A stretch of DNA of 64,000 nucleotides from positions 1-64,000 of the forward strand of contig JAHDOI010000050.1 in assembly GCA_018434945.1 (NCBI GenBank), in the 5' to 3' direction. This document shows, in pieces, positions 29,401 to 53,898 of this stretch (position 1 is the stretch's first letter; every line of letters starts with the position of its first letter). The position numbers were made by a program, and so were the translations under genes. The DNA comes from Selenomonadales bacterium. Lineage in GTDB: Bacteria; Bacillota; Negativicutes; Sporomusales; UBA7701. The notes under the pieces were generated by a model. It worked only from the letters and a program-made list of their open reading frames with translations, was not told the origin of the DNA and did no database searches.

Positions 29401-30396
29401 CTATACAAACAGCGACTGACTAGCGAACAGCGCCGGCCACCCGCCGGTATGAATGAACAGCACTTTACTGCCCGCCGGGAACACGCCCTTGCGGGCCAGG
29501 TCGATGAGTCCGGCCATCGCCTTGCCGGTGTAAGACGGGTCGAGGAGGATGCCCTCCGTCGCTGCGAGCAGCTTGACCGCCTCCACCATCGCTGCGGTCG
29601 GCAGCGTGTACCCCGGCCCGAGGTACTCGTCGCGCACCGCGATCTCGCTTCGTTCCACCGGTACGGCGATGCCGAGATAGTCGGCCGTTTTCCCCACCAT
29701 CTCCCATACCAGTTTCTCCTGAGCCTCCCGCGGGTTGAGGACACTGATGCCCGTCACCGGGACGCGGCAGCCCTCGCTCCTCAGGCCGAGCAGCAGCCTC
29801 CCCTGGGTGCCGGCGCTGCCGCCCGCCACCACGATATTGTCGAAGGCCGTCCCGGTCTCCGCCATCTGGGCGGCGAGCTCCTGCCCACAGGCGACATAGC
29901 CGAGCGCGCCGATGGGATTCGAGCCGCCCAGCGGGATTATATAGGGCCGTCGCCCCTCGGCCGCGGCTTCGGCGGCGGCGGCGGCCAGCGCGGCGGGCAG
30001 ATCGGTCCCCCACGGCACGACCGTTATCCGCTCCACGCCGAGCAGGTGATAAAGAAAAACGTTGCCGCCGGCATCCGGGCGGTATGCCCCCGGGGTCGAC
30101 TCCGCCAGAATCAGCCGGCATTTCAGGCCCTCCTTGACCGCCGCCGCCAGTGTCAGCCGGCAATGGTTCGACTGGACCGCCCCGCAGGTGATGAGCGTAT
30201 CCGCGCCCCCGGCCAGCGCGTCGCCGACGAGAAACTCCAGCTTGCGCGTCTTGTTGCCGCCGCCCGTCAGCCCCAGCAGGTCGTCGCGTTTGACGTACAC
30301 CTCCGGACCGCCCACCGCCCGCGAAAAGTTGGCCAGGTACTCGACCGGCGTCCGTCCCTCGGTGTAGCGCCGGCGGGGAAACCGCTCCAGGTTCAT
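29401..30396 (-). CDS. dcyD: D-cysteine desulfhydrase (ACC deaminase family)
   Basis: This 331-residue fold-type II PLP enzyme begins MNLERFPRRRYTEGRTPVEY. The PLP lysine lies in VKRDDLLGLTGGGNKTRKLE, followed by CGAVQSNHCRLTLAAA; IIPLGGSNPIGALGYV and VVAGGSAGTQGRLLLGL form the phosphate-binding and substrate regions, and LDPSYTGKAMAGLI the C-terminal motif. It would convert D-cysteine to pyruvate, sulfide and ammonia; related enzymes act on 1-aminocyclopropane carboxylate or L-cysteate, so the substrate is probable, not proven. ATG 30396 is set by GGAGGAGG six bases upstream. A strong palindrome precedes it. Confidence 0.85.
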   Translation of the reverse strand: MNLERFPRRRYTEGRTPVEYLANFSRAVGGPEVYVKRDDLLGLTGGGNKTRKLEFLVGDALAGGADTLITCGAVQSNHCRLTLAAAVKEGLKCRLILAESTPGAYRPDAGGNVFLYHLLGVERITVVPWGTDLPAALAAAAAEAAAEGRRPYIIPLGGSNPIGALGYVACGQELAAQMAETGTAFDNIVVAGGSAGTQGRLLLGLRSEGCRVPVTGISVLNPREAQEKLVWEMVGKTADYLGIAVPVERSEIAVRDEYLGPGYTLPTAAMVEAVKLLAATEGILLDPSYTGKAMAGLIDLARKGVFPAGSKVLFIHTGGWPALFASQSLFV

Positions 30397-30411
30397 CGCC
30401 ATCCTCCTCCG

Positions 30412-30446: not shown

Positions 30447-30477
30447 GACGGAGCGCACGGTCAACCGCACGCTCGTC
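30447..30477 (-). terminator. Terminator of the FCD regulator gene
   Basis: Interrupted stem GACGGAGCG / CGCTCGTC with an inner CGGT / ACCG, followed on the minus strand by TTTTTTGGGG. It separates the regulator from dcyD. Confidence 0.75.
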
Positions 30478-30488: not shown

Positions 30489-31232
30489 TTATCCGGATTC
30501 CTTATCGTGGACGCCGGCCATTTTCCAGTACTTCTCGACGTCCTTCATCAGATTGTTGATATGCTCGACCATGATCTCGCGGGCGCTGTCGGCGCGGCCG
30601 TCGGCGATCGCCTCGGCGAGCCGTTTGTGGTCGATGTAGACAGGGCTCTTGACCCGGCGGCGGATGTACTCGAGCACGGGCGAAAGCTGGGTATCCTGGC
30701 GGATGAGGGCGATGGCCGCTCCCAGGACGCGGTTGCCGGCCATGCGGGCGATCAGGGCGTGGAAATCGACATCCTCCTGGGCCGCGCCGCCGCCGGCGTC
30801 GAGTGCCCGCCGCTGCCGTTCCAGGATTTCGCGGAGCTGGGCGGCCTCGGCCTCGCTGCGGTTGGCGGCCGCCAGGTATGCCAGCTCGCTTTCGATGGCC
30901 CGCCTGGCCACAAGCACCTCCAGCAGCTGGCCCTTGGTATGGCTGCGCAGCGAACTGGCGAACTCGATCCCCCATTCGAAACTCTTCTGTCTGTTCAGCA
31001 GCTCGTCCAGCCGCGCCGTTCCCTGCGCCGACAGCGAACGGCCCTGGAAGCCTGCTTTGTCGGTGAAGCCCTGGTTGTCCAGGTCGCGCAGCAGCCGGCC
31101 GACGGTCGCCTCGCTGATGCTGTGTCCCATATTCTGCAGAACCTGGCTGATATGGCCGCAGCCAACCGGCTGGGTGCTGTCGCGGATGATCGTCAGCAGG
31201 TCGCGTTCCAGCTTATCCCGTTTACTTAGCAT
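30489..31232 (-). CDS. Transcriptional regulator: NrpR/RNase R-type winged helix fused to FCD domain
   Basis: In this 247-residue protein the first ~75 residues (LLTIIRDSTQPVGCGHISQV, LQNMGHSISEATVGRLLRDL, DNQGFTDKAGFQGRSLSAQG) look like the winged helix found in NrpR and at the start of RNase R, not the usual GntR domain. Residues ~95-235 are an FCD ligand-binding domain (EVLVARRAIESELAYLAAAN, EDVDFHALIARMAGNRVL, and YIDHKRLAEAI with EIMVEHINNL, supplying the metal-binding Asp/His set). It is the gene downstream of the flavoprotein, so it probably responds to a carboxylate metabolite of that pathway. The start is ATG 31232 with GGTGGGCAGATTGG. Confidence 0.82.
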   Translation of the reverse strand: MLSKRDKLERDLLTIIRDSTQPVGCGHISQVLQNMGHSISEATVGRLLRDLDNQGFTDKAGFQGRSLSAQGTARLDELLNRQKSFEWGIEFASSLRSHTKGQLLEVLVARRAIESELAYLAAANRSEAEAAQLREILERQRRALDAGGGAAQEDVDFHALIARMAGNRVLGAAIALIRQDTQLSPVLEYIRRRVKSPVYIDHKRLAEAIADGRADSAREIMVEHINNLMKDVEKYWKMAGVHDKESG

Positions 31233-31307
31233 CCAATCTGCCCACCTCTCGCACTGCTTGGGGCCATATGCCTTATTCGTCGCCGGAACGCCTTTTCCTG
31301 CTGCCTG

Positions 31308-32606
31308 TCAGCACACCGGCCGGGCAAAAACGCCTGTCATGCCGGCCTTCTCCACCCTCGCCCTGATGGCGGCGATATCGGTGGTGTAAAGCTGCTGTTG
31401 CTGCATATGCTCGAAATAGACCGAACCGGAGAATGTATACTTCTTGGTCAATCCGGCTTTGGTCTGCATCTGGCTGCGGACGAAGGCGATGGCATCGCCG
31501 CAGGCCAGGCTGGCGGGGATCTCGATCGGCGCCAGGCCGCAGGCCGCGCGGGCGGCGTTATGGCCGGCCAGCGTGCCGGTGATGATCGCCTCGGTGTGGC
31601 CGACGAGCAGGCCGGCTTTCTCGCCGCCGCAGAAAACGTTCTTCAACCCCTCGACCTTGAGGGCATTGTCGCGCGGCAGCATCCCCAGATAGCGCATCGA
31701 ATTGCCGATGCCGCCGGCGTAGGGGTCCTCGAAGCGGGCGTTCTCGAAGCCGGGCACCTGGCGGAGGATATCGAGGGGGTAGTAAGAGGTCATCAGTTTG
31801 GCGTGGCCGGTGTCGAGAAGGATGATATTTTCGGCGAACTCCTTGAGCGCGTATTGCTGGCAGGCCTTCTTGGCCAGCGAGCCGATGTCCTTCTGGAGGC
31901 TGGCGGGCACGGGGATGACGGCCACGCCGGTCGCGTTGAGCTTGTCCTGGATCTCCTTCGACAGCGAATCCTTATGGAGCTTGCACGAGCCGCTCATCGC
32001 CCCGAGGGTGCCGTCCGCCTTCTCGCCGAGGATTTCTTTCACCCCGGCCTTGGCGGCGATCGAGAACCGCGGCCCGAATGTCGGGCAGCGGTAGATGCAC
32101 ATCGCGCAGCCGTTGCCGTACTTCATACAGTTGCCCTGCGGACCGGCGGTGCCGGCCACGTCGATGAAGGCATCGCCGCTCGCCTCGATGGGCTCGCCGT
32201 GGAACACGTCGGCGAAAACCTTGGTGATAGCTCCGTCCTTGGCTTCGATGTCGCGCACCCTCGCCTGGAGATGCACGGTCACGCCGGCGGCGAGCAGCGC
32301 TTTGCGGACGGCCGGCTCGATGGTGGAAACGTCATAGAGGCTGGCGTGCTTGTGGCCGGGGAACTCGATGTTCTTGTGGCGCGCGTTGGCGTCGGCGATC
32401 GCGAACAGGTCCCCGCCGCCCATGGCGACAGCCTCCTCTGTGGCGGTGAAGCGGCCGTTGTTGCGCATGATGCCGCCCACGAGGCCGGTGCCAAGCAGCA
32501 TATCGGCGCGTTCGAACAGCTCGACCGCGCAGCCTGCCTTGCGGGCCGCCAGGGCAGCCGCGCAGCCCGCCCAGCCGCCGCCGACGATGACGACTTTTTT
32601 AGCCAT
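31308..32606 (-). CDS. FAD-dependent oxidoreductase with Cys cluster
   Basis: This 432-residue flavoprotein has the N-terminal dinucleotide motif KKVVIVGGGWAGCAAALAAR and an acidic strand end (VELFERADM). Around residues 171-188, GNCMKYGNGCAMCIYRCPTF contains four cysteines (C-x7-C-x2-C-x3-C) that could hold an Fe-S cluster or zinc. A second FAD contact is LKNVFCGGEKAGLLVGHTEA. General architecture resembles FAD-dependent dehydrogenases of the GidA/HI0933 group; the substrate is unknown. The start is ATG 32606 with GGAGGAACTATAATT. It follows the PLP gene across repeat copy D and probably acts in the same pathway. Confidence 0.8.
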   Translation of the reverse strand: MAKKVVIVGGGWAGCAAALAARKAGCAVELFERADMLLGTGLVGGIMRNNGRFTATEEAVAMGGGDLFAIADANARHKNIEFPGHKHASLYDVSTIEPAVRKALLAAGVTVHLQARVRDIEAKDGAITKVFADVFHGEPIEASGDAFIDVAGTAGPQGNCMKYGNGCAMCIYRCPTFGPRFSIAAKAGVKEILGEKADGTLGAMSGSCKLHKDSLSKEIQDKLNATGVAVIPVPASLQKDIGSLAKKACQQYALKEFAENIILLDTGHAKLMTSYYPLDILRQVPGFENARFEDPYAGGIGNSMRYLGMLPRDNALKVEGLKNVFCGGEKAGLLVGHTEAIITGTLAGHNAARAACGLAPIEIPASLACGDAIAFVRSQMQTKAGLTKKYTFSGSVYFEHMQQQQLYTTDIAAIRARVEKAGMTGVFARPVC

Positions 32607-32628
32607 AATTATAGTTCCTCCTTAGCTT

Positions 32629-32703
32629 CGGTCGCCGATAAGGCCCCATCTGCGGCGCACGCCGCCGAGGAGCAACGCCGCCGATGGACTTTTTAGGCAA
32701 CCG
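32629..32703. repeat. Dispersed structured repeat, mini copy D
   Basis: Short version. CCCCATCTGCGGCG and CGCCGCCGATGG pair around a GAGGAGCAA segment, which is also conserved in the full copies. Outer arms CGGTCGCC and GGCAACCG (ending at 32703, next to the PLP-gene stop) pair too. It lacks the two inner helices of the full copies. Confidence 0.7.
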
Positions 32704-34167
32704 CTAAATGATGCCCGCGAATTTGGCGACGATCTCGATCAGCTTCACCTGCGCCTGGACGCCGTAGCGCATCACGTCCTTCAGCAGGTTGCCCTTGCTG
32801 TCGGTCGTGCCGAGATCGGGGGAGATGTAGATATTGCCGTCATAGGCCACCGTCGGGATGACGCCCATCTGCGCCATGCCGCTCTGGAAGATGTTCGTGC
32901 CCGAATACATGTCCTCGATCGAGAAGATCGGCAGGCCGAGCTCGCCGTCCTTCCACGTGCCCTCGTAGTTCACTTCGACGGCGCGGGAGTTGTAGGATTT
33001 GTTGATTATGATCCCCGCTTTCAGTTTCGGGTGGATCTTGGCAAATTCCTCCTTGACGACGTCAAAGAGATCGTCGACCGCCCTGGTGTAAACCTCGGGG
33101 TTGTCGCGCAGCACCTTGAGGACCTGGATCTGGGTGGCCAGAGCTTCCTTGCCGGGATCGAACGTCACATAAGCCGCCTTGCCGTAGGAAGCGCCGGTGC
33201 CCCAGCGGTCGCCGTGCATGCCCATCGCCCGGCGGATGGGCACCATGATGTCTTCCTTGCCGATGATCAGGCCGCTGGTGGCCGCGCCGCTAGCCTTATC
33301 CATGCTGTAGACGATGGCGTCGGCGCCCGATTTGCGGATATCGTGGCCGATGCCCGGCACGCCCCAGGCGTTGTCGATAACGTAGGGGACGTTATATTCC
33401 TTGCACAGCTTGGCATACAGCTTCTGGAGGACCGGCGTGCCGTCCTTGTCCTTGGCGCCGTAGCCGTAGCCGGGGGTCTCGTAGCCCAGCGACGTCATGC
33501 CGGTGAACATGGCGGCGTGCCGCTCGGCGATTTTCTTCATCTCGACATAGGTCGCCTCGGGGTCGACCTTGGTCAGGAGCGGGACGGGATGGTGCTTGAT
33601 GCCGTGCACCGGATACTCGGCGCCGGCCACCGGCACGACGAGGGTATCGAGGTTGTTCTGGCGCTTGCCGTAGAAGCCGAGTTCGCCGGGAGTGGTGCCG
33701 CGGTCGGCGATGAGGTCCTTGTATTTGCCGGGGAAGGGGCGCCCGTAGCCGCCCTGGTGGTGGAAGTGCTTCTCGTAGGGGGCAATGTAGCGGGCGCGGT
33801 AGTTATCGCCCCGCCCCATGGCCGGCGGCGTGAACAGGGAGTCGAACGCCACCCACAGGCCGGCTTCGCAGGTGCAGGTCGGCGCGGCGTCGTACTCGTC
33901 GCCGTAAATATCCTTGACAAGCTCGCGGATCTGGTCGACCATGACCGCCAGCGGCGTCACCGTCTTGGCGGCTTCCTCGCTGGCGTGCATGATGTCTTCG
34001 CGCAGCGGCGCCGGGCAGCCGGAGATGCCGCCGGTCATGCCGAACTTGCCGCGGATTTCCTGCGGGATGCCGAGCTCGTCGGCCGCCTTCTTGGCCTCGG
34101 CGTAGATGGCAGGTATGTTGGCCTGCAGGCTCTTGTACATCTGGAATTTGTACTTGAATTTGCTCAT
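32704..34167 (-). CDS. PLP-dependent enzyme (fold type I), specificity unknown
   Basis: This 487-residue protein has features of fold-type I PLP enzymes: NVPYVIDNAWGVPGIGHDIR (Asp that would contact the pyridine N) and ADAIVYSMDKASGAATSGLI (likely PLP Lys in SMDK). An unusual PTCTCEAGLW lies in the N-terminal third, where aromatic stacking residues normally sit. It could be an aminotransferase, a lyase or a decarboxylase; I do not recognise the subfamily. The start is ATG 34167 with AGGAGGAGAAAGAC. It is flanked by repeat copies B and D and lies in line with RidA, the B12 protein and the flavoprotein. Confidence 0.75.
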   Translation of the reverse strand: MSKFKYKFQMYKSLQANIPAIYAEAKKAADELGIPQEIRGKFGMTGGISGCPAPLREDIMHASEEAAKTVTPLAVMVDQIRELVKDIYGDEYDAAPTCTCEAGLWVAFDSLFTPPAMGRGDNYRARYIAPYEKHFHHQGGYGRPFPGKYKDLIADRGTTPGELGFYGKRQNNLDTLVVPVAGAEYPVHGIKHHPVPLLTKVDPEATYVEMKKIAERHAAMFTGMTSLGYETPGYGYGAKDKDGTPVLQKLYAKLCKEYNVPYVIDNAWGVPGIGHDIRKSGADAIVYSMDKASGAATSGLIIGKEDIMVPIRRAMGMHGDRWGTGASYGKAAYVTFDPGKEALATQIQVLKVLRDNPEVYTRAVDDLFDVVKEEFAKIHPKLKAGIIINKSYNSRAVEVNYEGTWKDGELGLPIFSIEDMYSGTNIFQSGMAQMGVIPTVAYDGNIYISPDLGTTDSKGNLLKDVMRYGVQAQVKLIEIVAKFAGII

Positions 34168-34224
34168 GTCTTTCTCCTCCTAATAATTATGATTTAATTA
34201 TATGAACTTAAAGCTTCCTAACCT

Positions 34225-34346
34225 AAGATTGCGTAAAAAGCTCCAGATGCAAGGCGCACCGGAAGATCGCGCCGCGACGCGTACTCGTCGTACGCTAGCA
34301 AGCGATCTGAGGAGCAACGCCGCAGATGGACTTTTTACACAATCTT
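34225..34346. repeat. Dispersed structured repeat, copy B (ridA-PLP gap)
   Basis: Full copy. AGATCGC / GCGATCT replaces AGAGCGA / TCGCTCT of copy A (compensatory changes); GCGTAC / GTACGC is kept. The outer arms AAGATTGCGTAAAAAG and CTTTTTACACAATCTT pair; the right arm is formed by the last codons and stop of ridA. Confidence 0.85.
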
Positions 34347-34796
34347 TACAATCATTTCCACTTCGCAGGCGGCATCCAGCGGCAGCTCACCGACGCCCAC
34401 CGCCGACCTGGCATGCTCCCCGGCGGCGCCGAACAGCTTGCCCAAAAGCTCGGACGCGCCGTTGACCACTTTGGGCTGGGCGTTGAAACCGGGCGCGCTG
34501 GCCACGAAGCCCGTCACCTTCACCACCCGCTCGATGCGGTCCAGGCTGCCGACCGCCGCCTTAATGACACTGAGGCAGTTGAGGGCGCAGATCTGCGCCG
34601 CCGCGTAGCCCTGGGCCTCGTCCAGTTCGCGGCCGACCTTGCCCTTGAAAACAAGCTCGCCGTCCACGAACGGGATCTGCCCGGAGGTATACACATAGCC
34701 GTCGCCGGTCGCTACCGCCGGCACATAAGCCGCCACCGGCTTGGGCGCCGCCGGCAGGCTCAGCCCCATCTCCCTGATTTTTTCTTCCACATTCAT
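34335..34796 (-). CDS. RidA family protein (enamine/imine deaminase or related)
   Basis: This 153-residue RidA/YjgF-like protein has AVATGDGYVYTSGQIPFVDG, CALNCLSVIKAAVGSLDRIE, VVKVTGFVASAPGFNAQPKV and GEHARSAVGVGELPLDAACE, then VEMIVKI. The key Arg of true RidA is present in HARSAVGV. It is of the longer YjgH/RutC-like type. RidA proteins hydrolyse reactive imines released by PLP enzymes, which fits the neighbouring PLP gene. ATG 34796 is set by GGAGGTGACCAAA. Its 3' end is part of repeat copy B. Confidence 0.88.
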   Translation of the reverse strand: MNVEEKIREMGLSLPAAPKPVAAYVPAVATGDGYVYTSGQIPFVDGELVFKGKVGRELDEAQGYAAAQICALNCLSVIKAAVGSLDRIERVVKVTGFVASAPGFNAQPKVVNGASELLGKLFGAAGEHARSAVGVGELPLDAACEVEMIVKIV

Positions 34797-34826
34797 TTTG
34801 GTCACCTCCCCGGCGTGAGCCGGATT

Positions 34827-35276
34827 CTATTTCTCATCCCTGCTGGCGACGGTAAACCGTACCGGCATCCCCAGCCCGGCCCCCTGCTCCACCCCGTCGG
34901 CCAGCGCCTCCGTCCGGATGACGATGTTCAGGTGGTTGGGCATGTGGGTCTCGTCGAAGCCGGCCAGCGTGCCGACCAGGCGCCCGGCGAGGTAAACCCC
35001 GTCGCCGGCGACGATCACGCCGCCGTCCTCGATGGCGGCGAAGCCGAGGTATGCTATGCGGTCCACACGGCTGCCGGGCTTGGCGTCCGGCTCGTCGGTG
35101 AGGATAAGTTCGTGGATGTCGTACTTCCTGATGCAGCGGGATATCGGCTTGATAAGCTCCAGGCCGCGGTCTTCCATCTTCCCGCTCAGCACGACCGTCA
35201 GCGCGCCGGCGACATCGGTCTTGGCGGCGTAAGGGTTGGAAGAAAACTTGCCGGCTGCGTAGGGATCGTTTTTCAT
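34827..35276 (-). CDS. Unknown 149-aa protein of the cobalamin/PLP operon
   Basis: I do not recognise this family with certainty. The product begins MKNDPYAAGKFSSNPYAAKT and has a compact alternating beta pattern: ALTVVLSGKMEDRGLELIKP, ISRCIRKYDIHELILTDEPD, VDRIAYLGFAAIEDGGVIVA and DGVYLAGRLVGTLAGFDETH, then MPNHLNIVIRT. No membrane segment or Cys cluster is present. The beta-rich character and AGFDETHMPNHLN motif suggest a small ligand-binding or accessory protein. It starts at ATG 35276 with GGAGGTTTCGCCC, 12 bases after the mutase-like gene, so it is translationally linked to it. Confidence 0.75.
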   Translation of the reverse strand: MKNDPYAAGKFSSNPYAAKTDVAGALTVVLSGKMEDRGLELIKPISRCIRKYDIHELILTDEPDAKPGSRVDRIAYLGFAAIEDGGVIVAGDGVYLAGRLVGTLAGFDETHMPNHLNIVIRTEALADGVEQGAGLGMPVRFTVASRDEK

Positions 35277-35288
35277 GGGCGAAACCTC

Positions 35289-37109
35289 CTATCTTTTCAC
35301 CGTGGTCACGGTGTCTTTGCCCGTGCGCCCCGGGTATGCGCCCTCCGCCCGGCTGCCGAGGACGCCCTTGTGGATGGCGGCCACGAAGTCGCCGCTTGCC
35401 GCCACCTCGTCCAGCACGCTCTCGATGCCGGCCGCCAGCTCGTCGGCGTAACGGTCGGCCTGGGGGGTGGGGGCGATGCCGGCCTGGCCGAAGAAGCGGA
35501 ACCCTTCCTGGACGGCCCTGAGCGTATCGATTCGCGAGGGGGCGGAGATCGGCCCGCCCGAATAGGCCTCGTCGGTGGAGGCGATCGAAATTGCGTCCAC
35601 CGCCAGCGAACCTGCCAGGCAGGCGTGGAGGGCGGTAGCCATCGCCGACTGCACCCGGTCCTCGGTGTGGGTGAGGAAACCGATCGGCGCGCCCGGCCAC
35701 AGCGGGGCGTCGATTATGCCCCTGAGGGCCTTTATCTTCGCGACATTGAAGTCGATATAGTTATCCGTCATCAGGCCGCCGACCATCACCTCGGGCGAAT
35801 AGGCGAACAGCGGCTGGAGGATGGGGCGGCCGCCGAGCCGCACCGCCAGGTCGGCGACGATCAGCATGCCGGCGAAAGCCTTGTGGGCCGGCACGCCGCA
35901 CAGCTCCTCATTTGTCACGATGTCGAACGGCAGATTGTACTTCTTGGCGCAGAGGATGGTGTGGTAGCCATCCACCACCATGCGCTCCGGGTCGGTTCCC
36001 GCCCCCAGGGCGCCGTAGCAGAAATTTATCTTCGTCAGGTCGGCGCCCATCTTGCCCGCCAGCACCGCCGTCTCCGGGGTGTTAAGGCCGCGGTGGGCCC
36101 TCACCTGCCACAGCGTCGAATCCTCAAGGGCGCCCTTGATGCGGTTCAAGTTGGCGGGCGTTATCACCGTGCCGTCCTCCTGGTGGGTGAGGAAGCCGTC
36201 GAGGAAGCCCTCGGTGCGCGCCCCCCACGAAGGGTCGAAGTGCACGACGCCGTCGGCGCCCCACGCCTCGCTGGCGAGGATGTGGCCGATATCCATGAAG
36301 GGGCAGCCGGTGCCGTACTGGACGAACACGAGCGGCTTTTTGCGGGTGTGCTGGAGCTTGCGGACCGACATGCGGGCCTTGGTGTCGGCCAGATACTTCT
36401 CCAGGCCCTCCACCTCGCTCTTGGTGAAGCGGCGCGTCTTCGGGTGAAGCTCGCCGCCGGCGTAATATTTTTTCGGGACATCGCCGCACAGGGCGGAATA
36501 ATGCCGGTACAGGTCGCCGTCGCCCTTGCGGGCCCGCCACCTTTGGACGTCCCACAGCTCGTCGCGCAGCCGGGCGCGCTCCACGCCGGGCGACGTCTTA
36601 TCTTTGACCCAATCCAGGATCATCGCGCTGATGCGTTCGAGCTTGGCGGCGATGCCGGCGTGGCGGTAGCCGTAACCGTAGCCGGCCGTCATGTCGGGCT
36701 TGACCTTGGCGAACCGCGTCGGGTCGGGCTTATATTCCCGCCCCTCGATGAAACACACGACCTCCTCCACCGTCGTCCCCGGCCCGAAGCCGGCGTCGAA
36801 ACCCAGCTCGGCGGCCAGTTCCTGCCTGATCGCCATGCCGCCGATGCCCAGTCTGACCTTGGAACGGATGCCGGCGGCATCGGCGAGATCGACGAAGCGG
36901 GCGAGAATCTCGGCCACGCCGTAACCCAGCGTGCGGCTGAGGAGCAGCGTCCCCGTACCTTCGCGCAGAGCGTTGTCGATGATCTCCTCCTCCGTCAGGT
37001 CGGGCGGCAGGAGGATGATCTCGTAGCCGGCCTCCTCGAGGCCGCGGGCGATGATCTTCAGGCCGATGTCATGCACCGGATCGAGCGGTGCGAGCAGCAC
37101 TCTTTTCAT
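35289..37109 (-). CDS. Cobalamin-binding, TIM-barrel mutase-like protein
   Basis: In this 606-residue protein, residues 1-125 look like a B12-binding Rossmann domain: MKRVLLAPLDPVHDIGLKII, GTGTLLLSRTLGYG, VRLGIGGMAIRQEL and DAGFGPGTTVEEVVCFI. They match D-x-H-x-x-G/SxL/GG, except that the Asp is three rather than two residues before the His. Residues ~230-560 look like a glutamate-mutase-type barrel (WQVRAHRGLNTPETAVLAGK, INFCYGALGAGTDPERMVVD, FDIVTNEELCGVPAHKAFAG, AISIASTDEAYSGGPISAPS). The domain order (B12 first) differs from D-lysine and D-ornithine aminomutases. An adenosylcobalamin carbon-skeleton or amino shift is likely; the substrate is unknown. Start ATG 37109. Confidence 0.78.
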   Translation of the reverse strand: MKRVLLAPLDPVHDIGLKIIARGLEEAGYEIILLPPDLTEEEIIDNALREGTGTLLLSRTLGYGVAEILARFVDLADAAGIRSKVRLGIGGMAIRQELAAELGFDAGFGPGTTVEEVVCFIEGREYKPDPTRFAKVKPDMTAGYGYGYRHAGIAAKLERISAMILDWVKDKTSPGVERARLRDELWDVQRWRARKGDGDLYRHYSALCGDVPKKYYAGGELHPKTRRFTKSEVEGLEKYLADTKARMSVRKLQHTRKKPLVFVQYGTGCPFMDIGHILASEAWGADGVVHFDPSWGARTEGFLDGFLTHQEDGTVITPANLNRIKGALEDSTLWQVRAHRGLNTPETAVLAGKMGADLTKINFCYGALGAGTDPERMVVDGYHTILCAKKYNLPFDIVTNEELCGVPAHKAFAGMLIVADLAVRLGGRPILQPLFAYSPEVMVGGLMTDNYIDFNVAKIKALRGIIDAPLWPGAPIGFLTHTEDRVQSAMATALHACLAGSLAVDAISIASTDEAYSGGPISAPSRIDTLRAVQEGFRFFGQAGIAPTPQADRYADELAAGIESVLDEVAASGDFVAAIHKGVLGSRAEGAYPGRTGKDTVTTVKR

Positions 37110-37111
37110 CC

Positions 37112-37357
37112 TCAGCCCTCCTGCGTCGCCGCTTCGCGGAGCAGCCAGCGGTATTTGTCGGCCGGCCGGTACACATACGCCCGGCCCCTGACCCGGACCC
37201 CGGGTCCCTCGTATTGGGCGAACACCACGTCCGCGTCGGAGAACCCCCACGACTTGAGCAGGTTGAGCATCAGATTTCGCCCCTCCTCCTCGGTGGCGCA
37301 GACGAAGAAAGTCTCCACATCCAAAGCGTCCATTATCTGTTCGGTGATATTGGGCAT
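37112..37357 (-). CDS. 81-aa protein, possible small partner of the mutase-like protein
   Basis: This is the first gene of the operon. MPNITEQIMDALDVETFFVC starts the product; EEEGRNLMLNLLKSWGFSD and ARVYVYRP-like GRAYVYRPADKYRWLLREAA follow. It shows a mixed alpha/beta pattern with no known domain that I can see. The start is ATG 37357 because GGAGGTG lies seven bases upstream; an apparent earlier start (GTG) is inside that ribosome site. It ends two bases before the mutase-like gene, so the two are tightly coupled; a small subunit role is inference. Confidence 0.65.
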   Translation of the reverse strand: MPNITEQIMDALDVETFFVCATEEEGRNLMLNLLKSWGFSDADVVFAQYEGPGVRVRGRAYVYRPADKYRWLLREAATQEG

Positions 37358-37389: not shown

Positions 37390-37404
37390 CTCATCATTGA
37401 TGAG
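37390..37404. promoter_or_regulatory. Palindromic operator, site 1 (mutase operon)
   Basis: CTCATCATTGATGAG is a perfect 7-bp inverted repeat around one base, 33 bases upstream of the 81-aa gene. The following CT and a TCGCCATT 13 bases further are shared with site 2 at 50021. The 37405-37573 remainder is AT-rich divergent promoter space toward the LytS gene. Confidence 0.75.
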
Positions 37405-37573
37405 CTATATATTCACTCTTCGCCATTGTTTGCCAATCTCCTTCAACCTTTGGAAAAAAGAATAAATTTTTCCACGAGGCCGTTGATAAAAGGTCCGTAC
37501 GTTCCCGCGTGAAGGGATTGGCGGAAAAACGGAGAAATCAATCGGCAGAGAATTCGTTTTGCCGAGGTGGCCC

Positions 37574-39253
37574 ATGGACACCGCCATGCTTCTCGACCTG
37601 CTGTGCGACGGGGCGCTGATCGCCATCGTCGCCTACCTCATAGGGCGCAACAAATTCATCAGCGACTGCGTCCACACCCCCACGCGGGGCCGGTGCTTCG
37701 TCACCCTTGTCGCCATATTCGCTCCGCTGTCGATCATGGGGACGTACAGCGGCATCCCCGTCGAGGGGGCGCTGGCCAACACCCGGCTCGTAGGGGCGCT
37801 GATGGGCGGCATCATGGGCGGCCCGTGGGTCGGCCTCACCGTCGGCGCGATCAGCGGCCTGCACCGTTATTCGCTCGGCGGCTTCACCGCCGAGGCCTGC
37901 GGCCTCTCGGCCGTCATCGGCGGCCTGCTCGCCGGCCTCGTCCGCCAGCGGCTCGGCATCCACCGGCTCAACTGGAAAGTCGGCGCGGCCGTCGCCCTGG
38001 CGGGGGAAATCGTCCAGAAGGGACTGGTGTTCGCCTTCGCGCCCTTCGAAGCCGCCTGGGCCCTCGAACGGGTCATCGCCGTCCCCACCACCCTTGTCAG
38101 CATCCTCGGCACCGTCATCTTCATAATCATCATCGAAGACATCCAGAAAACGCGCGAAACCCACAGCGCCCAGGCCGCCGAGATATCGCTCGAAATCGCC
38201 AGCCGCACCCTCCCCTTTCTTAGGCAGGGCCTTACCCCGTCCTCGGCGCAGAAAACGGCCGAAATCATCTACGAGCTGACCAAGATGGACGCCGTGTCCA
38301 TCTGCGACCGCGAAAAAGTGCTGGCCTTCATCGGCGTCGGCGACGACCACCACGCCGCCGGCCAGCCGATCAGCACCGCCTCGACCCGCAGAGTCTTCGA
38401 AGAACAGCGGCTGATCGTCATCGACACCCCCGAAGACCGCGGCTGCTCGGTGCCAGGCTGCCCGCTCCGCTCCGGCGTCGCCGCCCCCCTCTTCTCGCAC
38501 GGCGAAATCGTCGGCACCATAAAACTGTCGCACGCGGTCGCGGGCACCGTCACCGCCATGGACATCCGCCTCGTCGACGGCATCGCCAACCTGCTGTCCG
38601 TCCAGATCCAGCTCGCCGAAGTCGACAACCAGAAAAAACTGCGCGAAAAGGCCGAGCTCAAAGCCCTCCAGGCGCAGATAAACCCGCACTTCCTCTTCAA
38701 CACCATCAGCGCCATCATGTCCTTCTGCCGCACAAAGCCCGAGACCGCCCGCACCCTCCTCGCCCATCTGGCGACCATCATGCAGCGCAGCCTCACCGTC
38801 CGCGACGACTTCGTACCCCTCGGCGACGAGATCGACGGCATCTTCGCCTACCTGGAGATCGCCAAAACGCGCTTCGGCTCGAGGCTCACCGTCGACATCG
38901 ATGTCGCCGGTGCCGTCCGCCCGGTGCCCGTCCCCGTACTCTCCCTCCAGCCGCTGGTGGAAAACGCCCTCGAACACGGCCTGTTCCCCAAGCTCAGCCA
39001 CTGCCGGCTGACCGTCCGGGCCGGGATAGAAGGCGAAGACTTGCTGATAACGATAACCGACAACGGCGTAGGCATCCCCTCCGCCAGACTCGCCACCCTG
39101 CTCACGAGCGAGGAAGGCATCGGCGTCAAAAACGTCCACAAGCGCCTGGCCAGTATCTACGGCAGCGGCTACGGCCTCACCATCGACAGCACCCCCGGCG
39201 AAGGTACCCGGGCCGCTATCCGCATCCCCCTCGAAAGGAGGAATACGGCGTGA
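37574..39253 (+). CDS. LytS-type sensor histidine kinase (5TM-GAF-HisKA/HATPase)
   Basis: In this 559-residue kinase, residues ~1-190 are the 5TMR-LYT membrane sensor (GRNKFISDCVHTPTRGRCF, GTYSGIPVEGALANTRLVGA, MGGIMGGPWVGLTVGAISGL, HRYSLGGFTAEACGLSAVIG). A GAF-like domain (~205-345, RGCSVPGCPLRSGVAAPLF), the His box ALQAQINPHFLFNTISAIMS and the ATPase N/G boxes (LSLQPLVENALEHGLFPKL, ITDNGVGIP, GIGVKNVHKRLASIYG) follow. This class senses extracellular small metabolites such as pyruvate; the ligand here is unknown. The start is ATG 37574 with GAGGTGGCCC. It overlaps the regulator gene by four bases and is divergent from the mutase operon. Confidence 0.94.
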   Translation: MDTAMLLDLLCDGALIAIVAYLIGRNKFISDCVHTPTRGRCFVTLVAIFAPLSIMGTYSGIPVEGALANTRLVGALMGGIMGGPWVGLTVGAISGLHRYSLGGFTAEACGLSAVIGGLLAGLVRQRLGIHRLNWKVGAAVALAGEIVQKGLVFAFAPFEAAWALERVIAVPTTLVSILGTVIFIIIIEDIQKTRETHSAQAAEISLEIASRTLPFLRQGLTPSSAQKTAEIIYELTKMDAVSICDREKVLAFIGVGDDHHAAGQPISTASTRRVFEEQRLIVIDTPEDRGCSVPGCPLRSGVAAPLFSHGEIVGTIKLSHAVAGTVTAMDIRLVDGIANLLSVQIQLAEVDNQKKLREKAELKALQAQINPHFLFNTISAIMSFCRTKPETARTLLAHLATIMQRSLTVRDDFVPLGDEIDGIFAYLEIAKTRFGSRLTVDIDVAGAVRPVPVPVLSLQPLVENALEHGLFPKLSHCRLTVRAGIEGEDLLITITDNGVGIPSARLATLLTSEEGIGVKNVHKRLASIYGSGYGLTIDSTPGEGTRAAIRIPLERRNTA

Positions 39254-39993
39254 TCCTCACAACCGTGATCGTCGACGACGAACCGCCCATCTGCGAGGAA
39301 ATCGAGTACCTGCTCGGCAGCCACCCCGACGTCAAGGTCGTCGCCAGCTTCGGACAACCGCCGGCCGCCCTCGACTACATCGCCGCCAACAGCCCCCGCC
39401 TGGTCTTCCTCGACATCAGCCTCCCCGGCATGTCCGGCCTCGAGATGGCCGCCCGCCTCAGCGTCCTGCGCTATCCGCCCCTCATCGTCTTCATCACCGC
39501 CCACCCCGAATACGCCCTCGCCGCCTTCGAAACCCCGGCCATCGGCTACCTCACCAAGCCGGTCACCGAAACAAAAATCGCCGCCGTCCTCGGCAAAGTG
39601 CGCGGCCTGGCAGCGCGTCCGGCCGCCGCGCCCCAAGAGCCGTCCGGCAAAATATGCGTGCTGTCGGGGGGCCGGATCGTCCCCCTGAGCAAAGAAGACA
39701 TCGCCCTCGTCCAGGTGCGCGAAAAAGCCGTCTTCGTCCTCACCAAACAGGGCGAATACGCCGCATCCCTCACCATGCAGGAAATCGAAAACCTGCTGAC
39801 CGCCGGCCGCGCCGACGGGGCCGCCTTCGTGCGCGTCCACCGCCAGTACATCGTCAACCTCGATAAAGTCGTCGAGGTCATCCCCTGGTTCAAAGGCACA
39901 TACTTCCTGCGGACGGACGACTGCAAAGGCCAGCAGATCCCGGTGAGCCGCCACAAGATCGGCCGCGTCAAAGCCGCCCTCGGGCTGAAATAA
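39250..39993 (+). CDS. LytTR-family response regulator
   Basis: This 247-residue response regulator has an N-terminal receiver with acidic pocket (VIVDDEPPICEEIEYLLGS), phospho-Asp in RLVFLDISLPGMSGLEMAA, Thr in FITAHPEYALAAFE and Lys in YLTKPVTE. A C-terminal LytTR DNA-binding domain (~140-247) carries FVRVHRQYIVNLDKVVEVIP and QQIPVSRHKIGRVKAAL. LytTR proteins bind short direct repeats, so the nearby palindrome need not be its site. The start is GTG 39250 with AAAGGAGGAATACGGC. The probable target is the divergent operon or a transporter (inference). Confidence 0.94.
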   Translation: MILTTVIVDDEPPICEEIEYLLGSHPDVKVVASFGQPPAALDYIAANSPRLVFLDISLPGMSGLEMAARLSVLRYPPLIVFITAHPEYALAAFETPAIGYLTKPVTETKIAAVLGKVRGLAARPAAAPQEPSGKICVLSGGRIVPLSKEDIALVQVREKAVFVLTKQGEYAASLTMQEIENLLTAGRADGAAFVRVHRQYIVNLDKVVEVIPWFKGTYFLRTDDCKGQQIPVSRHKIGRVKAALGLK

Positions 39994-40025
39994 TATTAAC
40001 CGCATCCTTCGCCCACCCAAGAGAA

Positions 40026-40083
40026 AAACGGCACTCCAAAAAAATCGGCATGCCCGTAAGCATGCCGCGAAGGAGTGCCGTTT
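40026..40083. terminator. Nested double-hairpin terminator (LytTR gene / uxaA)
   Basis: Outer stem AAACGGCACTCC / GGAGTGCCGTTT (40026-40037, 40072-40083) encloses the hairpin CGGCATGC / GCATGCCG (40046-40067). A/T runs on both outer sides make it usable by both converging genes. Confidence 0.75.
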
Positions 40084-40136
40084 ATATGTTTTTGGCTCAA
40101 GCCGTCCAGAAGCGCCCAGCTGCCGGACGGCCGTAG

Positions 40137-41624
40137 CTATACCGTAACCCCGTTCTTGAATATCGTCAGATCGCGGAACCCCAGCTTCTCCGCCTTTGTC
40201 TCCTGCCCGGACGCCACGTTGAGCACGAAAGCGAAGAATTCGCCGGCCAGTTCCTCCCGGGCGACGCCTTCCAGCAGGCGCCCGGCGTCGAAATCCATCC
40301 AGTTCTTCTTGCGGCGGAAAAGGTCGCTATTTGTGGCGATCTTCACCGTCGGCACGACGGTGCCGAGCGGCGTGCCGCGGCCGGTCGTGAACAGGATCAG
40401 CTGGCAGCCGGCGGCCGCGAGCACCGTCGACGCCACCAGATCGTTGCCGGGCCCGTTCAGCAGGTTGAGGCCCTGGGTCTTCGCCGCCTCGCCATACTGC
40501 AGCACATCCACCACCGGGGCGGCGTAGCCGCCCTTCTGCGTGCAGCCGAGCGACTTATCCTCCAGCGTGGTGATGCCGCCGTCCTTGTTGCCGGGGGAAG
40601 GGTTCTCGTACACCGGCTGGTTGTGGGCGGTGAAATATGTCTTGAAATCGTTTATCAGCGCGACGATCTTCGCGAACGTCGCCCTGTCCTTGGCCCTGTT
40701 CATGAGAATGGTCTCGGCGCCGAACATCTCCGGCACCTCGGTGAGCACCGTCGTGCCGCCGCTCGCCACCAGGCGGTCGGAAAACAGCCCTACGAGCGGG
40801 TTGGCGGTGATGCCGGAGAACCCGTCCGAGCCGCCGCACTTGAGACCGACCACCAGGTCGGACAGCGGGCAGGGGGTCCGCCTGAAGCCGCCGGCATATG
40901 CCGCCAGCTCCGACACCAGCCGCACCCCGGCCTCGATCTCGTCGTCGACCCCCTGGGTCTCGAGGAATTTAACCCGCTGGGGGTCCACCGGCCCGAGGAT
41001 CTCCTTGAACGCCCGGATATGGTTATTCTCGCACCCCAGGCCGAGGACGAGAACGCCGCCGGCGTTGGGATGGCGCACGAGGTTGGCCAGTATCTTCTGG
41101 GTATTGGCGATATCCTCGCCCAGCTGCGAACAGCCGTAGGGATGGGTGAAGGCATGGACGCCGTCGATATTCTCCTGGCAGAGCAGCTTCCCGGCCACCT
41201 CGGCGATCACGCGGGCGTTCTGGTTGACGCAGCCCACCGTGGGGATGATCCAGATCTCGTTGCGTGTACCCACCTTGCCGTCCGGCCGCCGGAAGCCCAT
41301 GAAGGACTCGCCCCGGCCGGCGCTCTCCAGCGTTATCTCCTCCGGTTCGTACGTATACTCCAGCAGTTCGCCGAGATTTGTTTTGCAATTATGGGTATGG
41401 ACCCATTCGCCGGCGGCGATGTCCGTCTGGGCCGTGCCGATCGGAAAGCCGTACTTCACGACCTTCTCCCCGGCGGCTATGGGAGCGATGGCAATCTTGT
41501 GGCCGGCGGGGATGGGCTGGCGGGTAACCACGGCCGCCAGGCCGGCGGCCAGAGCCTGTCCCGGGGCCAGCGGCTTAACCGCCACCGCGACATTGTCTTT
41601 GGGGTGGATTTTCATCAGATCCAT
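40137..41624 (-). CDS. uxaA: Altronate dehydratase
   Basis: UxaA dehydrates D-altronate to 2-keto-3-deoxygluconate in galacturonate breakdown. The 495 residues combine an N-terminal SAF domain (~1-100; GHKIAIAPIAAGEKVVKYGF and EWVHTHNCKTNLGE) with the large dehydratase domain (FMGFRRPDGKVGTRNEIWII, VHAFTHPYGCSQLGED, VLGLGCENNHI, VVGLKCGGSDGFSGITANPL, SLGCTQKGGY, LFTTGRGTPLGTVVPTVKIA). The start is ATG 41624 with AAAGGAGATATGGC. It follows uxaB by 13 bases and is the last gene of the operon. Galactarate dehydratase is related, but the linked uxaB favours altronate. Confidence 0.9.
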   Translation of the reverse strand: MDLMKIHPKDNVAVAVKPLAPGQALAAGLAAVVTRQPIPAGHKIAIAPIAAGEKVVKYGFPIGTAQTDIAAGEWVHTHNCKTNLGELLEYTYEPEEITLESAGRGESFMGFRRPDGKVGTRNEIWIIPTVGCVNQNARVIAEVAGKLLCQENIDGVHAFTHPYGCSQLGEDIANTQKILANLVRHPNAGGVLVLGLGCENNHIRAFKEILGPVDPQRVKFLETQGVDDEIEAGVRLVSELAAYAGGFRRTPCPLSDLVVGLKCGGSDGFSGITANPLVGLFSDRLVASGGTTVLTEVPEMFGAETILMNRAKDRATFAKIVALINDFKTYFTAHNQPVYENPSPGNKDGGITTLEDKSLGCTQKGGYAAPVVDVLQYGEAAKTQGLNLLNGPGNDLVASTVLAAAGCQLILFTTGRGTPLGTVVPTVKIATNSDLFRRKKNWMDFDAGRLLEGVAREELAGEFFAFVLNVASGQETKAEKLGFRDLTIFKNGVTV

Positions 41625-41637
41625 GCCATATCTCCTT

Positions 41638-47571: not shown

Positions 47572-47852
47572 AGAAGCGCCCCTCCGTTCATTTGCGGACA
47601 GGGAAATACCGCGAAAACGCCGATACTTTATTAACTCAGTTATTTATCTGTTAATTGCAAATTCTGTATCAGGGAAGATATTACTGCCGCCCTCCGTTTC
47701 AAATGGTGAACTATCATCCCACCATGCAGCACTTCTTGTCCGACATTTTTTTCCGTGACCAGGCGGAGATGAAACTCACCGGCCGGCAGCACCCCGCATA
47801 TCATGGATAGCCGACAACCATCGGCGCACGAAGATATCGCGAGGTGATAAAC
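47572..47852. promoter_or_regulatory. Divergent intergenic region, ROK operon / Cys-rich gene
   Basis: This stretch of 281 bases has no gene. An AT-rich patch at ~47628-47670 contains TTAAC / GTTAA half sites around 14 bases, a candidate ROK operator, and TTGCAA as a possible -35. The plus-strand gene is preceded by GCGAGGTG. I see nothing else definable. Confidence 0.4.
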
Positions 47853-48542
47853 GTGGAATGCGAAGAACTCGCCGCGGAACGCTGCCCGTGCATCCTTGCG
47901 GAAACGGCGGAATGCACCTACTGCACGCTGCTCAGGGGCGAGGCGGTGTGCGGCTGCGACTGGCAGGGCAGGTGCGCCCTCGAACGCTGGCAGTGGCGCG
48001 ACGAATGCGACGCCGGAAGCCGGGCGGCCGGGACGGTCGTAGCGGTGCGCCCCCTGGCGGGCGCCACCAGTCTGGTTATCAGGGGCGACGACGAACTTGC
48101 GTCAGCGCCCGCCGGCACAACGGTGAAATTCCGCCTCCCGTTTCCCGGCAGCCGGGAAATAGGCGCGGTGCTTCTCAGAAGCTACCCCTCCGGACTCGTT
48201 TACCTTCTTTCCTTCGACCCCTGCCCCGCCGACCCGCTTCTTGGCCTGACGGTCAAAACGGCGTGCGCCGGCAACGCCTTCGCCGGCCACGAAACCCTGG
48301 CGGCGGCAGCGGACCGGCAGATCGTCATCCTCGCCGCCGCGCCGCTCGCCGACCTGCTCGCGCCGCTGGCCGCCGGGCTCCGTTCCCGCGGCAGCCGCGT
48401 GACATTCGCTTCTGCCGTCGGCCGGCCGGCCGACGACGCCATCCTCTTCGCCGTCGGCCGGGAAAATGAAATAAAGAGGATGGCAACAGCGTTGCCACCC
48501 TCTTTCCGGGGTAAAATCGTAACCTGGGTTACAGGAGGATGA
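47853..48542 (+). CDS. Cys-rich protein, possible flavin/Fe-S electron-transfer subunit
   Basis: In this 229-residue protein the first ~45 residues carry eight cysteines (MECEELAAERCPCILAETAE, CTYCTLLRGEAVCGCDWQGR, CALERWQWRDEC), suggesting one or two metal clusters. The remainder resembles a small ferredoxin-reductase/PyrK-like fold: GTVVAVRPLAGATSLVIRGD, FRLPFPGSREIGAVLLRSYP, then a Rossmann-like RQIVILAAAPLADLLAPLAA. I cannot assign a family. GTG 47853 follows GAGGTG by six bases. Its 3' end overlaps the converging permease gene by 14 bases and contains that gene's terminator. Confidence 0.65.
   Translation: MECEELAAERCPCILAETAECTYCTLLRGEAVCGCDWQGRCALERWQWRDECDAGSRAAGTVVAVRPLAGATSLVIRGDDELASAPAGTTVKFRLPFPGSREIGAVLLRSYPSGLVYLLSFDPCPADPLLGLTVKTACAGNAFAGHETLAAAADRQIVILAAAPLADLLAPLAAGLRSRGSRVTFASAVGRPADDAILFAVGRENEIKRMATALPPSFRGKIVTWVTGG
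48473..48505 (-). terminator. Permease terminator embedded in the opposing coding sequence
   Basis: AAAGAGGATGGCAAC / GTTGCCACCCTCTTT is a 15-bp stem with one mismatch and a 3-base loop. On the minus strand it is followed by ATTTCATTTTCC, 24 bases past the permease stop. It lies wholly inside the Cys-rich gene on the plus strand. Confidence 0.75.
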
Positions 48543-49914
48543 TGGCCACAATCGTCGTGGCGATGAAGCCCAGCACCACCGGCACGAAATTGCGGCGGGC
48601 CAGTTCGATCGGGTTGACGCCGGTGATGGCGGCCACCGGGATGAGTCCCCAGGGGATGATGGTGCCGCCGCCCGTCCACACGCCGGCGATCTGGCCGAGG
48701 GCGGCCAGCGTCGCCTTGTCGAGGGCGATGGCCTTGTCGAAGGTCGCGGCCACGCTGCCGACGAGCGGCAGGGGCGAGAAGCCCGAGCCGTCGAGGCCGA
48801 CGACGATGCCAGTGAACAGCGTCACGATGGCGACGAAAGGCTTGTTGAGCGGCACCGTCTGAGAGAGGGCCACACCGAAGTCCTCCAGGAAGCCGGTGGC
48901 CGTCTTCAGCTCGAAGATCGCCTTGGCGAGATCGCCCTTGCCCATGAAGAAGAAGCCGCCGATAACGATGACGGGGGCGAAGATCTTGATGCCGAACATG
49001 AACCCTTCACGCAGGTAATCGGTTATCTTCTCCAGCCCCTCCATGCCGAACTTCAGCAGGCAGCCGACCGCCAGGATGACGAGGGCGGTGGCGCCGAGAA
49101 GGGCGGTCGCGTCGCCGCCGCGCAGGTTGAGGGTCAGCATCGCGACGACGTCGAGGGCGAACGCCAGCGGCGTCACGATCGCCAGGAACCACGACACCCA
49201 ATTGAGGTCGCGCTTGGTCTCGGTCGCGGTCGTCAGCGCTTCGCGCTCCAGCTTGTGGGCGGCGCCGTTGGCTTTCATATCGCGCTTTATCAGGAAATAC
49301 GCCGTGATGGTCGTCACCAGGCCCATGGTGAGAATAAGCGGCACGCTGGCGGCGATAACCGGACCGGGGTTGGCGAAGCCGGCCGCCTTGGCGGTGATCG
49401 TCGGCGCCCCCTGGATGACGAAGTCGGTCGAGAGCGCGATGCCGTGGCCGAAAAGGTTCATCGCCATCGCCACACCGATCGCCGGCAGGCCGGCCCTGAC
49501 CGCCACCGGGAACAGGATGGCGCCTACGAGCGCGGTCGCCGGCGAGGGCCAGAAGAACCAGGACGCGAACATCATCGCGAAGCCGACCACCCAGAAGGCG
49601 ACATCGGCGTTGACCATCAGCCTCGCGGCCGGGCTCATCACCAGATAGTCGGCTCCTGTCTCGCCGAGCAGCTTGGATAAGGAAACGATCAACGATATAA
49701 CGACAATAATTCCCCAAAACTCGTTGCCGGCCACGATCAGTGAGTTGAAAACCGTCGTGAAGGCTCCCACGACGCCGCCCTTCACCAGCCAGCCGACGGA
49801 AAGCAGCCCCAGGATGCAGGGAATCAACGGGTCCTTGCGCAAGCCCATGACGACGATGACGACCATTACCCAGAACAGAAACAGCCAATGAGCCGCGGTC
49901 AGCGCTACCGTCAT
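48529..49914 (-). CDS. Multi-pass ion-transporter-like permease, copy 1
   Basis: This 461-residue protein has ~12 hydrophobic segments. Notable conserved parts are MGLRKDPLIPCILGLLSVGW, LLGETGADYLVMSPAARLMV, NLFGHGIALSTDFVIQGAPT, FTGIVVGLDGSGFSPLPLVG and AGVWTGGGTIIPWGLIPVAA. The inverted topology and paired GDGSG/GGGT-like hairpins recall the ion-transporter (IT) superfamily of organic-anion carriers, but the substrate is unknown. The start is ATG 49914 with GGAGGAGTATAGTAT. It is transcribed separately from copy 2 (terminator at 50112) from a region holding the palindrome at 50021. Confidence 0.8.
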   Translation of the reverse strand: MTVALTAAHWLFLFWVMVVIVVMGLRKDPLIPCILGLLSVGWLVKGGVVGAFTTVFNSLIVAGNEFWGIIVVISLIVSLSKLLGETGADYLVMSPAARLMVNADVAFWVVGFAMMFASWFFWPSPATALVGAILFPVAVRAGLPAIGVAMAMNLFGHGIALSTDFVIQGAPTITAKAAGFANPGPVIAASVPLILTMGLVTTITAYFLIKRDMKANGAAHKLEREALTTATETKRDLNWVSWFLAIVTPLAFALDVVAMLTLNLRGGDATALLGATALVILAVGCLLKFGMEGLEKITDYLREGFMFGIKIFAPVIVIGGFFFMGKGDLAKAIFELKTATGFLEDFGVALSQTVPLNKPFVAIVTLFTGIVVGLDGSGFSPLPLVGSVAATFDKAIALDKATLAALGQIAGVWTGGGTIIPWGLIPVAAITGVNPIELARRNFVPVVLGFIATTIVAIILL

Positions 49915-50020
49915 ATACTATACTCCTCCTCAAAATAGGTCCGGCTTCGGGTATCCTTATGCATTTGCCGCTTTTTACCGGCGGCCCCACCTCCCCGGCT
50001 TTCATTTCACCACAATGTCA

Positions 50021-50035
50021 CTCATCATTGATGAG
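50021..50035. promoter_or_regulatory. Palindromic operator, site 2 (permease copy 1)
   Basis: Identical CTCATCATTGATGAG with the following CT, then TCGCCATT 11 bases on, as at 37390. It is ~107 bases upstream of permease copy 1. Confidence 0.75.
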
Positions 50036-50111
50036 CTGTTTAGAAAATTCGCCATTTTCTTGCCGTTTCCTGCCGTTAACCCCGGCGGGGCAATGTATTT
50101 TTTTACATACA

Positions 50112-50137
50112 AAAGGGGCGGCCGCTGCCGCCCCTTT
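50112..50137 (-). terminator. Terminator of permease copy 2
   Basis: Stem AAGGGGCGGC / GCCGCCCCTT, followed on the minus strand by TTTGTATG. Confidence 0.85.
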
Positions 50138-50166
50138 ACCCGATACTTGGTTGATTAAAACGCGTT

Positions 50167-53894: not shown

Positions 53895-53898
53895 CACG

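Follow-up and report, generated by a model that had tools for sequence, protein, structure and literature searches.

The locus at positions 30489-37357 raises the question of which pathway would combine a B12-binding mutase-like protein with a separate PLP enzyme, a DUF6917 protein and a regulator gene. All seven genes that the original prediction had placed in line here were found, and they run in one direction on the minus strand of the window, i.e. the whole 64-kb stretch of DNA that was analysed (Table 1). KamB partner, operator and window permeases were absent from that inventory. Taking these together, we consider it probable that the operon represents the core of an unassigned anaerobic catabolic pathway, which is built around an AdoCbl mutase, is fed by a permease and is controlled by an FCD-type regulator. 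Such a pathway very likely breaks down some organic acid or amino acid.

Table 1. Positions of the operon genes, operators and permease region in the window.
Feature	Position	Strand	Remarks
Terminator-like hairpin with T run	30451..30474	-	10-bp stem; operon end, after regulator gene
HTH_12 + FCD transcriptional regulator	30489..31232	-	Pfam FCD and HTH_12
GidA/TrmFO-like FAD protein	31308..32606	-	GIDA family match, invariant Cys cluster
Fold-type-I PLP enzyme, unnamed family	32704..34167	-	Invariant Asp265, candidate PLP-Lys291
RidA-family (YjgF) imine/enamine deaminase	34335..34805	-	PF14588 match
DUF6917 protein, 149 aa	34827..35276	-	Pfam PF21891, E 1e-48
606-aa mutase, B12 domain and TIM barrel	35289..37109	-	Pfam B12-binding match and structure model
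81-aa small protein	37112..37357	-	In relatives, almost always just upstream of the mutase gene
Perfect palindromic operator CTCATCATTGATGAG	37390..37404		32 bp upstream of the 81-aa gene
Cys-rich sulfide/dihydroorotate-dehydrogenase-like FAD/NAD-binding protein	47844..48542	+	Recurrent neighbour of loci; weaker association
Permease, 461 aa, regulon member	48529..49914	-	~106 bp downstream of second operator
Second exact operator	50021..50035		Exact-site scan of own assembly
Tandem permease paralogue, 476 aa	50167..51597	-	Same family

In gene order from the 81-aa gene, the intergenic gaps measure 2, 12, 21, 167, 97 and 75 bp. Because a strong terminator-like hairpin (30474-30451) comes directly after the regulator gene, the interval 30489-37357 forms a natural unit. 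Upstream searches, both in the window and at 24 relative loci, found neither a riboswitch nor a T-box. A gene for a CuyA-like D-cysteate sulfo-lyase (29401-30402, minus strand; NF052482, 462.9 bits against a cut-off of 450) was rejected as a pathway member, since the terminator intervenes and its post-operon position is confined to same-genus loci (L069, L070). On the other side, the region 37538-41672 holds a LytS/LytTR-type two-component pair, divergent from the operon, with UxaA- and UxaB-like genes behind it; the genus conserves the divergent LytS gene.

Among 398 evenly sampled Bacillota genomes, the mutase is present in 39, the PLP enzyme in 41 and DUF6917 in 40. PLP enzyme and DUF6917 are both found in every mutase genome (39/39), mostly within 10 kb, with hypergeometric p values for co-occurrence with the mutase of ~5e-52 and ~2e-53, respectively, and of 3e-40 at genus level. 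The conserved linkage that the original prediction presupposed is thus clearly present. The relatives that were compared comprise whole genomes and 24 loci from named genome contigs, including Sporomusaceae, Pelosinus, Desulfosporosinus, Desulfovirgula, Desulfotomaculum copahuensis, Candidatus Formimonas warabiya, Lucifera butyrica and others. The gene set is syntenic across dozens of Bacillota loci and in most of the relatives collected, and is arranged either as a single block or as the sub-blocks DUF6917-(RidA)-PLP-FAD-permease and 81 aa-mutase-KamB. Since some loci lack the RidA or the flavoprotein gene, these two proteins are accessory, and the core consists of mutase, 81-aa protein, PLP enzyme and DUF6917 (plus KamB). 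For the same reason, the imine clean-up by RidA and the oxidation by the flavoprotein that were envisaged earlier do not belong to the core. Mutase and PLP enzyme are very strongly conserved, with a mean column identity of 77-81%. Between mutase, PLP enzyme and DUF6917, the distance matrices show correlations of r 0.64-0.77 (0 of 2000 permutations as high), a result that either co-evolution or a common species history could produce.

The genome also harbours a second full operon (L056; G000:C60, 3928-10801) that is ~80% identical, possesses its own KamB gene and has a glutamate dehydrogenase gene nearby; a linked FCD regulator gene and an operator are absent from this copy. In another genome (L068 7563-9376; G024:C4) the mutase gene consists of two overlapping frames, reflecting a frameshift or a sequencing error.

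The mutase itself is composed of two domains. Residues 1-125 constitute a B12-binding Rossmann domain with the motif DPVHDxG, which matches PF02310 (B12-binding) with 47.8 bits (cut-off 32.1) and has KamE/OraE as its closest match (E 8.5e-18). Hereby the His ligand and the GG of the B12 motif are retained (H13, G16, G90 and G91 are invariant). The DPVHDxG motif is likewise invariant, and because Pro11 stands for the Asp of DxHxxG, the lower-ligand chemistry may be unusual. Residues ~147-606 correspond to a KamD-like TIM barrel. The AlphaFold model of residues 147-606 (pLDDT 82) matches KamD (1xrs_A) with Z 30.5 over 381 residues at an rmsd of 3.1, above both GlmE (Z 25) and OraE (Z 24), so that the TIM barrel inferred earlier is supported by structure model and fold match. 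In a sequence alignment, mutase and KamD have the motifs VERAxLR, TG....D, GAD, GL..PE, YG and EA in common, and hhalign, taken by itself and with shallow profiles, gives a weak match for the barrel-KamD pair (probability 11%). The mutase showed no match to PF09043 (KamD/OraE), none to the GlmE family PF06368 in Pfam (hhalign probability 0.6%) and none to the CoA-mutase barrel family. Against the OraE family NF040743 it reaches 36.6 bits (cut-off 800), and this through the B12 domain only.

In most relatives the mutase gene is adjoined by a gene for a KamB-type reactivase. The KamB homologue of one relative scores 229 against NF052386, above the cut-off of 210, and the KamB-like protein of the genome studied here scores 206, slightly below it. 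As a search of this genome with PF09043 gave no KamD or OraE match, its KamB-like protein very likely serves the mutase. B12-domain match, KamD fold match, common motifs and KamB partner together place the mutase, as modelled, in the lysine 5,6-/ornithine 4,5-aminomutase lineage, with a domain order inverted relative to OraE. The 81-aa protein gave no usable match in Pfam and NCBIfam even at E 10. It probably serves the mutase as small subunit or partner, and its residues D10, D13, E15, T16, D41, D43, G51, G53, R55, R57, R59, Y61, R64, Y69 and W71 are invariant.

The residues that hold PLP in lysine 5,6-aminomutase are K144 beta, S238, Y263, N299, R184, R268 and S189 (PMC3958899), and the trigger Glu in OAM is E338 (PMC4413051). 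We compared these positions by low-identity sequence alignment with a shallow family profile rather than by coordinates; on this basis, the PLP-Lys segment is missing in all aligned mutases, exactly as in methylmalonyl-CoA mutase small subunits, and the K144 beta column is occupied by Leu24. KamD residues S238, R184, R268 and S189 correspond to R340, D292, A370 and A297, so that none of the 25 mutase sequences keeps an equivalent of S238 or of the phosphate ligands R184, R268 and S189. The equivalents of Tyr263 (Y365) and of the trigger Glu (E514; OAM Glu338) are kept, and that of N299 is ambiguous in the alignment. Given the deletion of the PLP-Lys segment and the exchange of most PLP contacts, we probably deal with a PLP-independent branch rather than with a PLP aminomutase. 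Amino-group chemistry most likely falls to the separate fold-I PLP enzyme, and the invariant mutase residues R298, R337, R340 and H339 would match a substrate with a carboxylate group. The amino-acid substrate and the sequence of steps put forward in the original prediction are possible rather than established; the barrel shares ancestry with lysine 5,6-aminomutase, whose PLP site it lacks.

The same residues bear on the alternative that the mutase is a true PLP- and AdoCbl-dependent aminomutase. It would then catalyse a 1,2-amino shift as third member of the lysine 5,6-/ornithine 4,5-class and hold PLP differently, for example with its pyridine nitrogen facing Arg340 and its internal aldimine formed by Lys18 or another lysine. 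KamD-like barrel, KamE-like B12 domain, KamB-type reactivase partner and the stacking Tyr (Y365) and trigger Glu (E514), both still present, are all consistent with this assignment. However, the segment bearing the internal-aldimine Lys (K144 beta / K629) is missing and the R184, R268, S189 and S238 equivalents, whose roles are described for the lysine enzyme (PMC3958899), are gone from every sequence, so that we regard an aminomutase as unlikely. A new AdoCbl rearrangement, to which we would give about an even chance, would involve a KamD-lineage mutase that has lost PLP and acts on a new substrate; with a fold-I PLP enzyme and DUF6917 it would make up a catabolic pathway that possesses its own regulator, operator and transporter family and occurs in ~1/10 of the sampled Bacillota genomes.

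Of the remaining operon proteins, DUF6917 carries an invariant GFD.TH.PNH.N motif and is predicted to form an all-beta barrel. Its model (pLDDT 91) has EF-Tu-like barrels as best PDB matches (Z 4.4), and a clear structural match was not found in the PDB. We rejected DUF6917 as a form of OrtA, as the family search showed no relation; the OrtA family PF22010 is absent from the genome. RidA scores 81.9 bits against PF14588 (YjgF; cut-off 35) and contains the RidA-type catalytic Arg in ARSAVGV. In the flavoprotein, Cys160, 167, 170, 174, 208, 249 and 326 are invariant. Near KamB, several loci (L078 15027-17268, L088 2092-4377, L132, L135 and L138) encode a paralogous FAD protein together with a PRK05802-type FAD/NAD-binding protein, probably an electron-transfer pair. 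For the PLP enzyme, in which D265 and K291 are invariant across the family, family searches returned sub-threshold Aminotran_5/SepSecS/DgaE signals only, around the PLP lysine. Its strongest, yet weak, structure-database sequence matches are Cys/Met-family enzymes and a DgaE-type ammonia lyase.

These weak matches are among the points in favour of a link to threonine or homoserine, in which the PLP enzyme would catalyse an elimination on a substrate of homoserine or threonine type, RidA would hydrolyse 2-aminocrotonate/2-aminoacrylate to the 2-oxo acid and the mutase would interconvert C4 skeletons. One Sporomusa-like lineage (L063, L064, L071) has hom-thrB adjoining the cluster, hom-thrC-thrB-lysC lies directly upstream in L076, thrC is found in L061 and L149, and lysC in L043 and L054. 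Most loci, however, have no thr neighbours, the thr genes lie outside the operator regulon, and the neighbour counts are post hoc and without matched background, which makes this reading still less likely than an aminomutase. Substrate clues also conflict among genomes: hom/thrB/thrC/lysC occur in several lineages, class-III aminotransferases in a few, and Por/AOR, DapA-like or NIF3 plus amidohydrolase genes in others. Thr-gene neighbours and class-III aminotransferases, as hints without matched background, are leads only.

Which genes belong to the pathway can further be read from its operator, the palindrome CTCATCANTGATGAG, to which the HTH_12/FCD regulator probably binds. In distant relatives the operator is retained upstream of DUF6917 or of the 81-aa gene. 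Across 82 core loci, some of them duplicated between sources, it occurs at ≤1 mismatch in 42/47 loci with a linked FCD gene versus 5/35 without (p 3e-12); 30 of the latter 35 stand at 3-4 mismatches, the same as shuffles. In whole genomes, an exact site is present in 35/49 mutase-positive versus 2/26 mutase-negative ones (p 9e-8), and the reversed control pattern yielded no exact sites in the whole-genome scan. The operator is found in only part of the mutase-positive genomes, and most order-level relatives have neither operator nor linked regulator gene. The assembly studied here (3.8 Mb) contains two exact sites, at 37390 and 50021, both in the window.

Operator genomes were picked for carrying the operon, and non-core sites stem from genome-wide scans; within this set, 50 of 58 distinct exact sites have the start of a listed regulon-family gene ≤700 bp downstream, nearly all ≤160 bp. 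Among the 58 sites, the gene behind the operator is DUF6917 in 25 cases, the permease in 9, the 81-aa gene in 7-8, a NIF3-like gene in 3, a DapA-like aldolase in 2, PorG in one and, in one more, a ferredoxin gene adjoining aldehyde:ferredoxin oxidoreductase. At L196, a further Por cluster (2-oxoacid:ferredoxin oxidoreductase) lies ~1 kb from the operator site. The genome studied here additionally holds a one-mismatch operator, CTCATCAACGATGAG, upstream of a NIF3-like gene (L153 1501-1515; G000:C37:41020), which is likely a true site; the NIF3-like family also stands behind exact operators in three other genomes (L194, L202, L204). Another near-operator of this genome (C74:16316) was discarded, as it lies inside a gene. 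At L202 (5317-8775) and L204, the operator is followed in line by genes for a NIF3-like protein, an amidohydrolase and a Gate-domain membrane protein, and at L206 (G019:C1:220000-230000) by genes for an FAD protein, a permease and an FCD regulator, in a genome without full-length mutase match.

The permease gave no usable match in Pfam and NCBIfam, even at E 10. Its relatives sit within the operon at other loci, and in same-genus genomes tandem permease copies flank the operator. Beside the permease pair, genes for a tandem-rhodanese protein, NrfD-like and Fe-S proteins and a molybdopterin oxidoreductase (51719-56680, minus strand) resemble a polysulfide/thiosulfate reductase set.

Links to metabolite damage are common for both RidA and NIF3-like proteins. 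This general link and the mean column identity of the enzymes given above are what a generic detoxification or cofactor-repair cassette, with a mutase acting on a damaged metabolite, has in its favour. Co-regulation with a permease and ferredoxin-linked oxidoreductases via an FCD-type (acid-sensing) regulator argues against such a cassette, and the two full loci within the genus point to a duplication that fits substrate use; we hold this explanation to be improbable. 

From the computed gene set, co-inheritance, fold, PLP-site loss and operator with its targets, we infer cofactor use, step order and catabolic direction of the pathway as follows. The substrate would be taken up via the permease pair (48529-51597). 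The putative AdoCbl radical mutase, consisting of the 606-aa protein and its 81-aa partner, would act without PLP on a charged substrate that bears a carboxylate, rearranging its carbon skeleton or a group next to it, and would probably be reactivated by the KamB-like P-loop protein from the second locus. Fold-I PLP enzyme and DUF6917, its obligate companion, would perform amino-group or C-C chemistry before or after the mutase step. Where present, RidA would hydrolyse a reactive enamine/imine to the 2-oxo acid, and the flavoprotein would contribute an oxidation or reduction. In some genomes, ferredoxin-linked oxidation of the resulting 2-oxo acid or aldehyde might follow. A flow toward pyruvate or another 2-oxo acid would fit, because the operator also controls Por, a DapA-like aldolase or a NIF3-like gene in some relatives. 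The HTH_12/FCD regulator would sense a pathway metabolite and act at CTCATCANTGATGAG.

A known lysine, ornithine or glutamate fermentation with diverged enzymes would account for the common superfamily and reactivase, but relatives encode KamD, OraE and GlmE separately and with high scores, the genome studied here has no PF09043, PF06368 or OrtA match and the operon partners differ, so that a disguised form of these pathways appears very improbable. The proposal of a conserved, probably catabolic operon around a B12 mutase and outside the known pathways is supported; none of KamDE, OraSE, GlmE and OrtA, all of which were tested, accounts for the set.

For none of barrel, PLP enzyme, DUF6917, 81-aa protein and permease was a function-bearing sequence family found in Pfam, NCBIfam or the PDB, and our search of open-access literature on DUF6917, RidA with B12 mutase and related terms yielded no description. 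AdoCbl mutases as a kind are already known; the branch, its partners, regulon and pathway appear to be undescribed. To our knowledge, fewer than a dozen substrates of B12 radical mutases are known. If the reading is correct, a mutase of aminomutase descent that lost PLP would offer a test of how radical enzymes change their chemistry. The strict module would link DUF6917 with an unnamed PLP family and with an unnamed permease family through one testable function, and the operator provides a direct handle which points to the regulator, predicts inducibility and lists more pathway genes per genome.

Among known systems, KamDE (PDB 1xrs, 8t0v, 9q1a) with KamB shares with the mutase the barrel fold, the B12 domain (GFDAGFGPGT motif), the KamB-type partner and the positions of stacking Tyr and trigger Glu. 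In contrast to KamDE, whose B12 domain is on a separate subunit, the mutase is a single chain with an N-terminal B12 domain and a separate 81-aa partner, its PLP-Lys segment is deleted, its PLP-phosphate ligands are lost, and its operon adds a separate fold-I PLP enzyme and DUF6917. OraSE (PDB 3kow, 3kp1) likewise combines a large barrel and B12 chain (fold Z 24) with a small partner protein, but the B12 domain is C-terminal in OraE, PLP is bound in the large chain and the partners are OrtA/OrtB. GlmES and 2-methyleneglutarate mutase resemble the mutase in AdoCbl, a TIM barrel without PLP and a non-PLP-type B12-domain spacing; GlmE nevertheless belongs to a different family, and the operon lacks methylaspartate pathway genes. 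Methylmalonyl-CoA and isobutyryl-CoA mutases, finally, have class-I AdoCbl chemistry and B12-domain spacing in common with the mutase, and fused IcmF also carries an N-terminal B12 domain, whereas they differ in their CoA-mutase barrel and in a MeaB-like partner in place of the KamB-like one found here.
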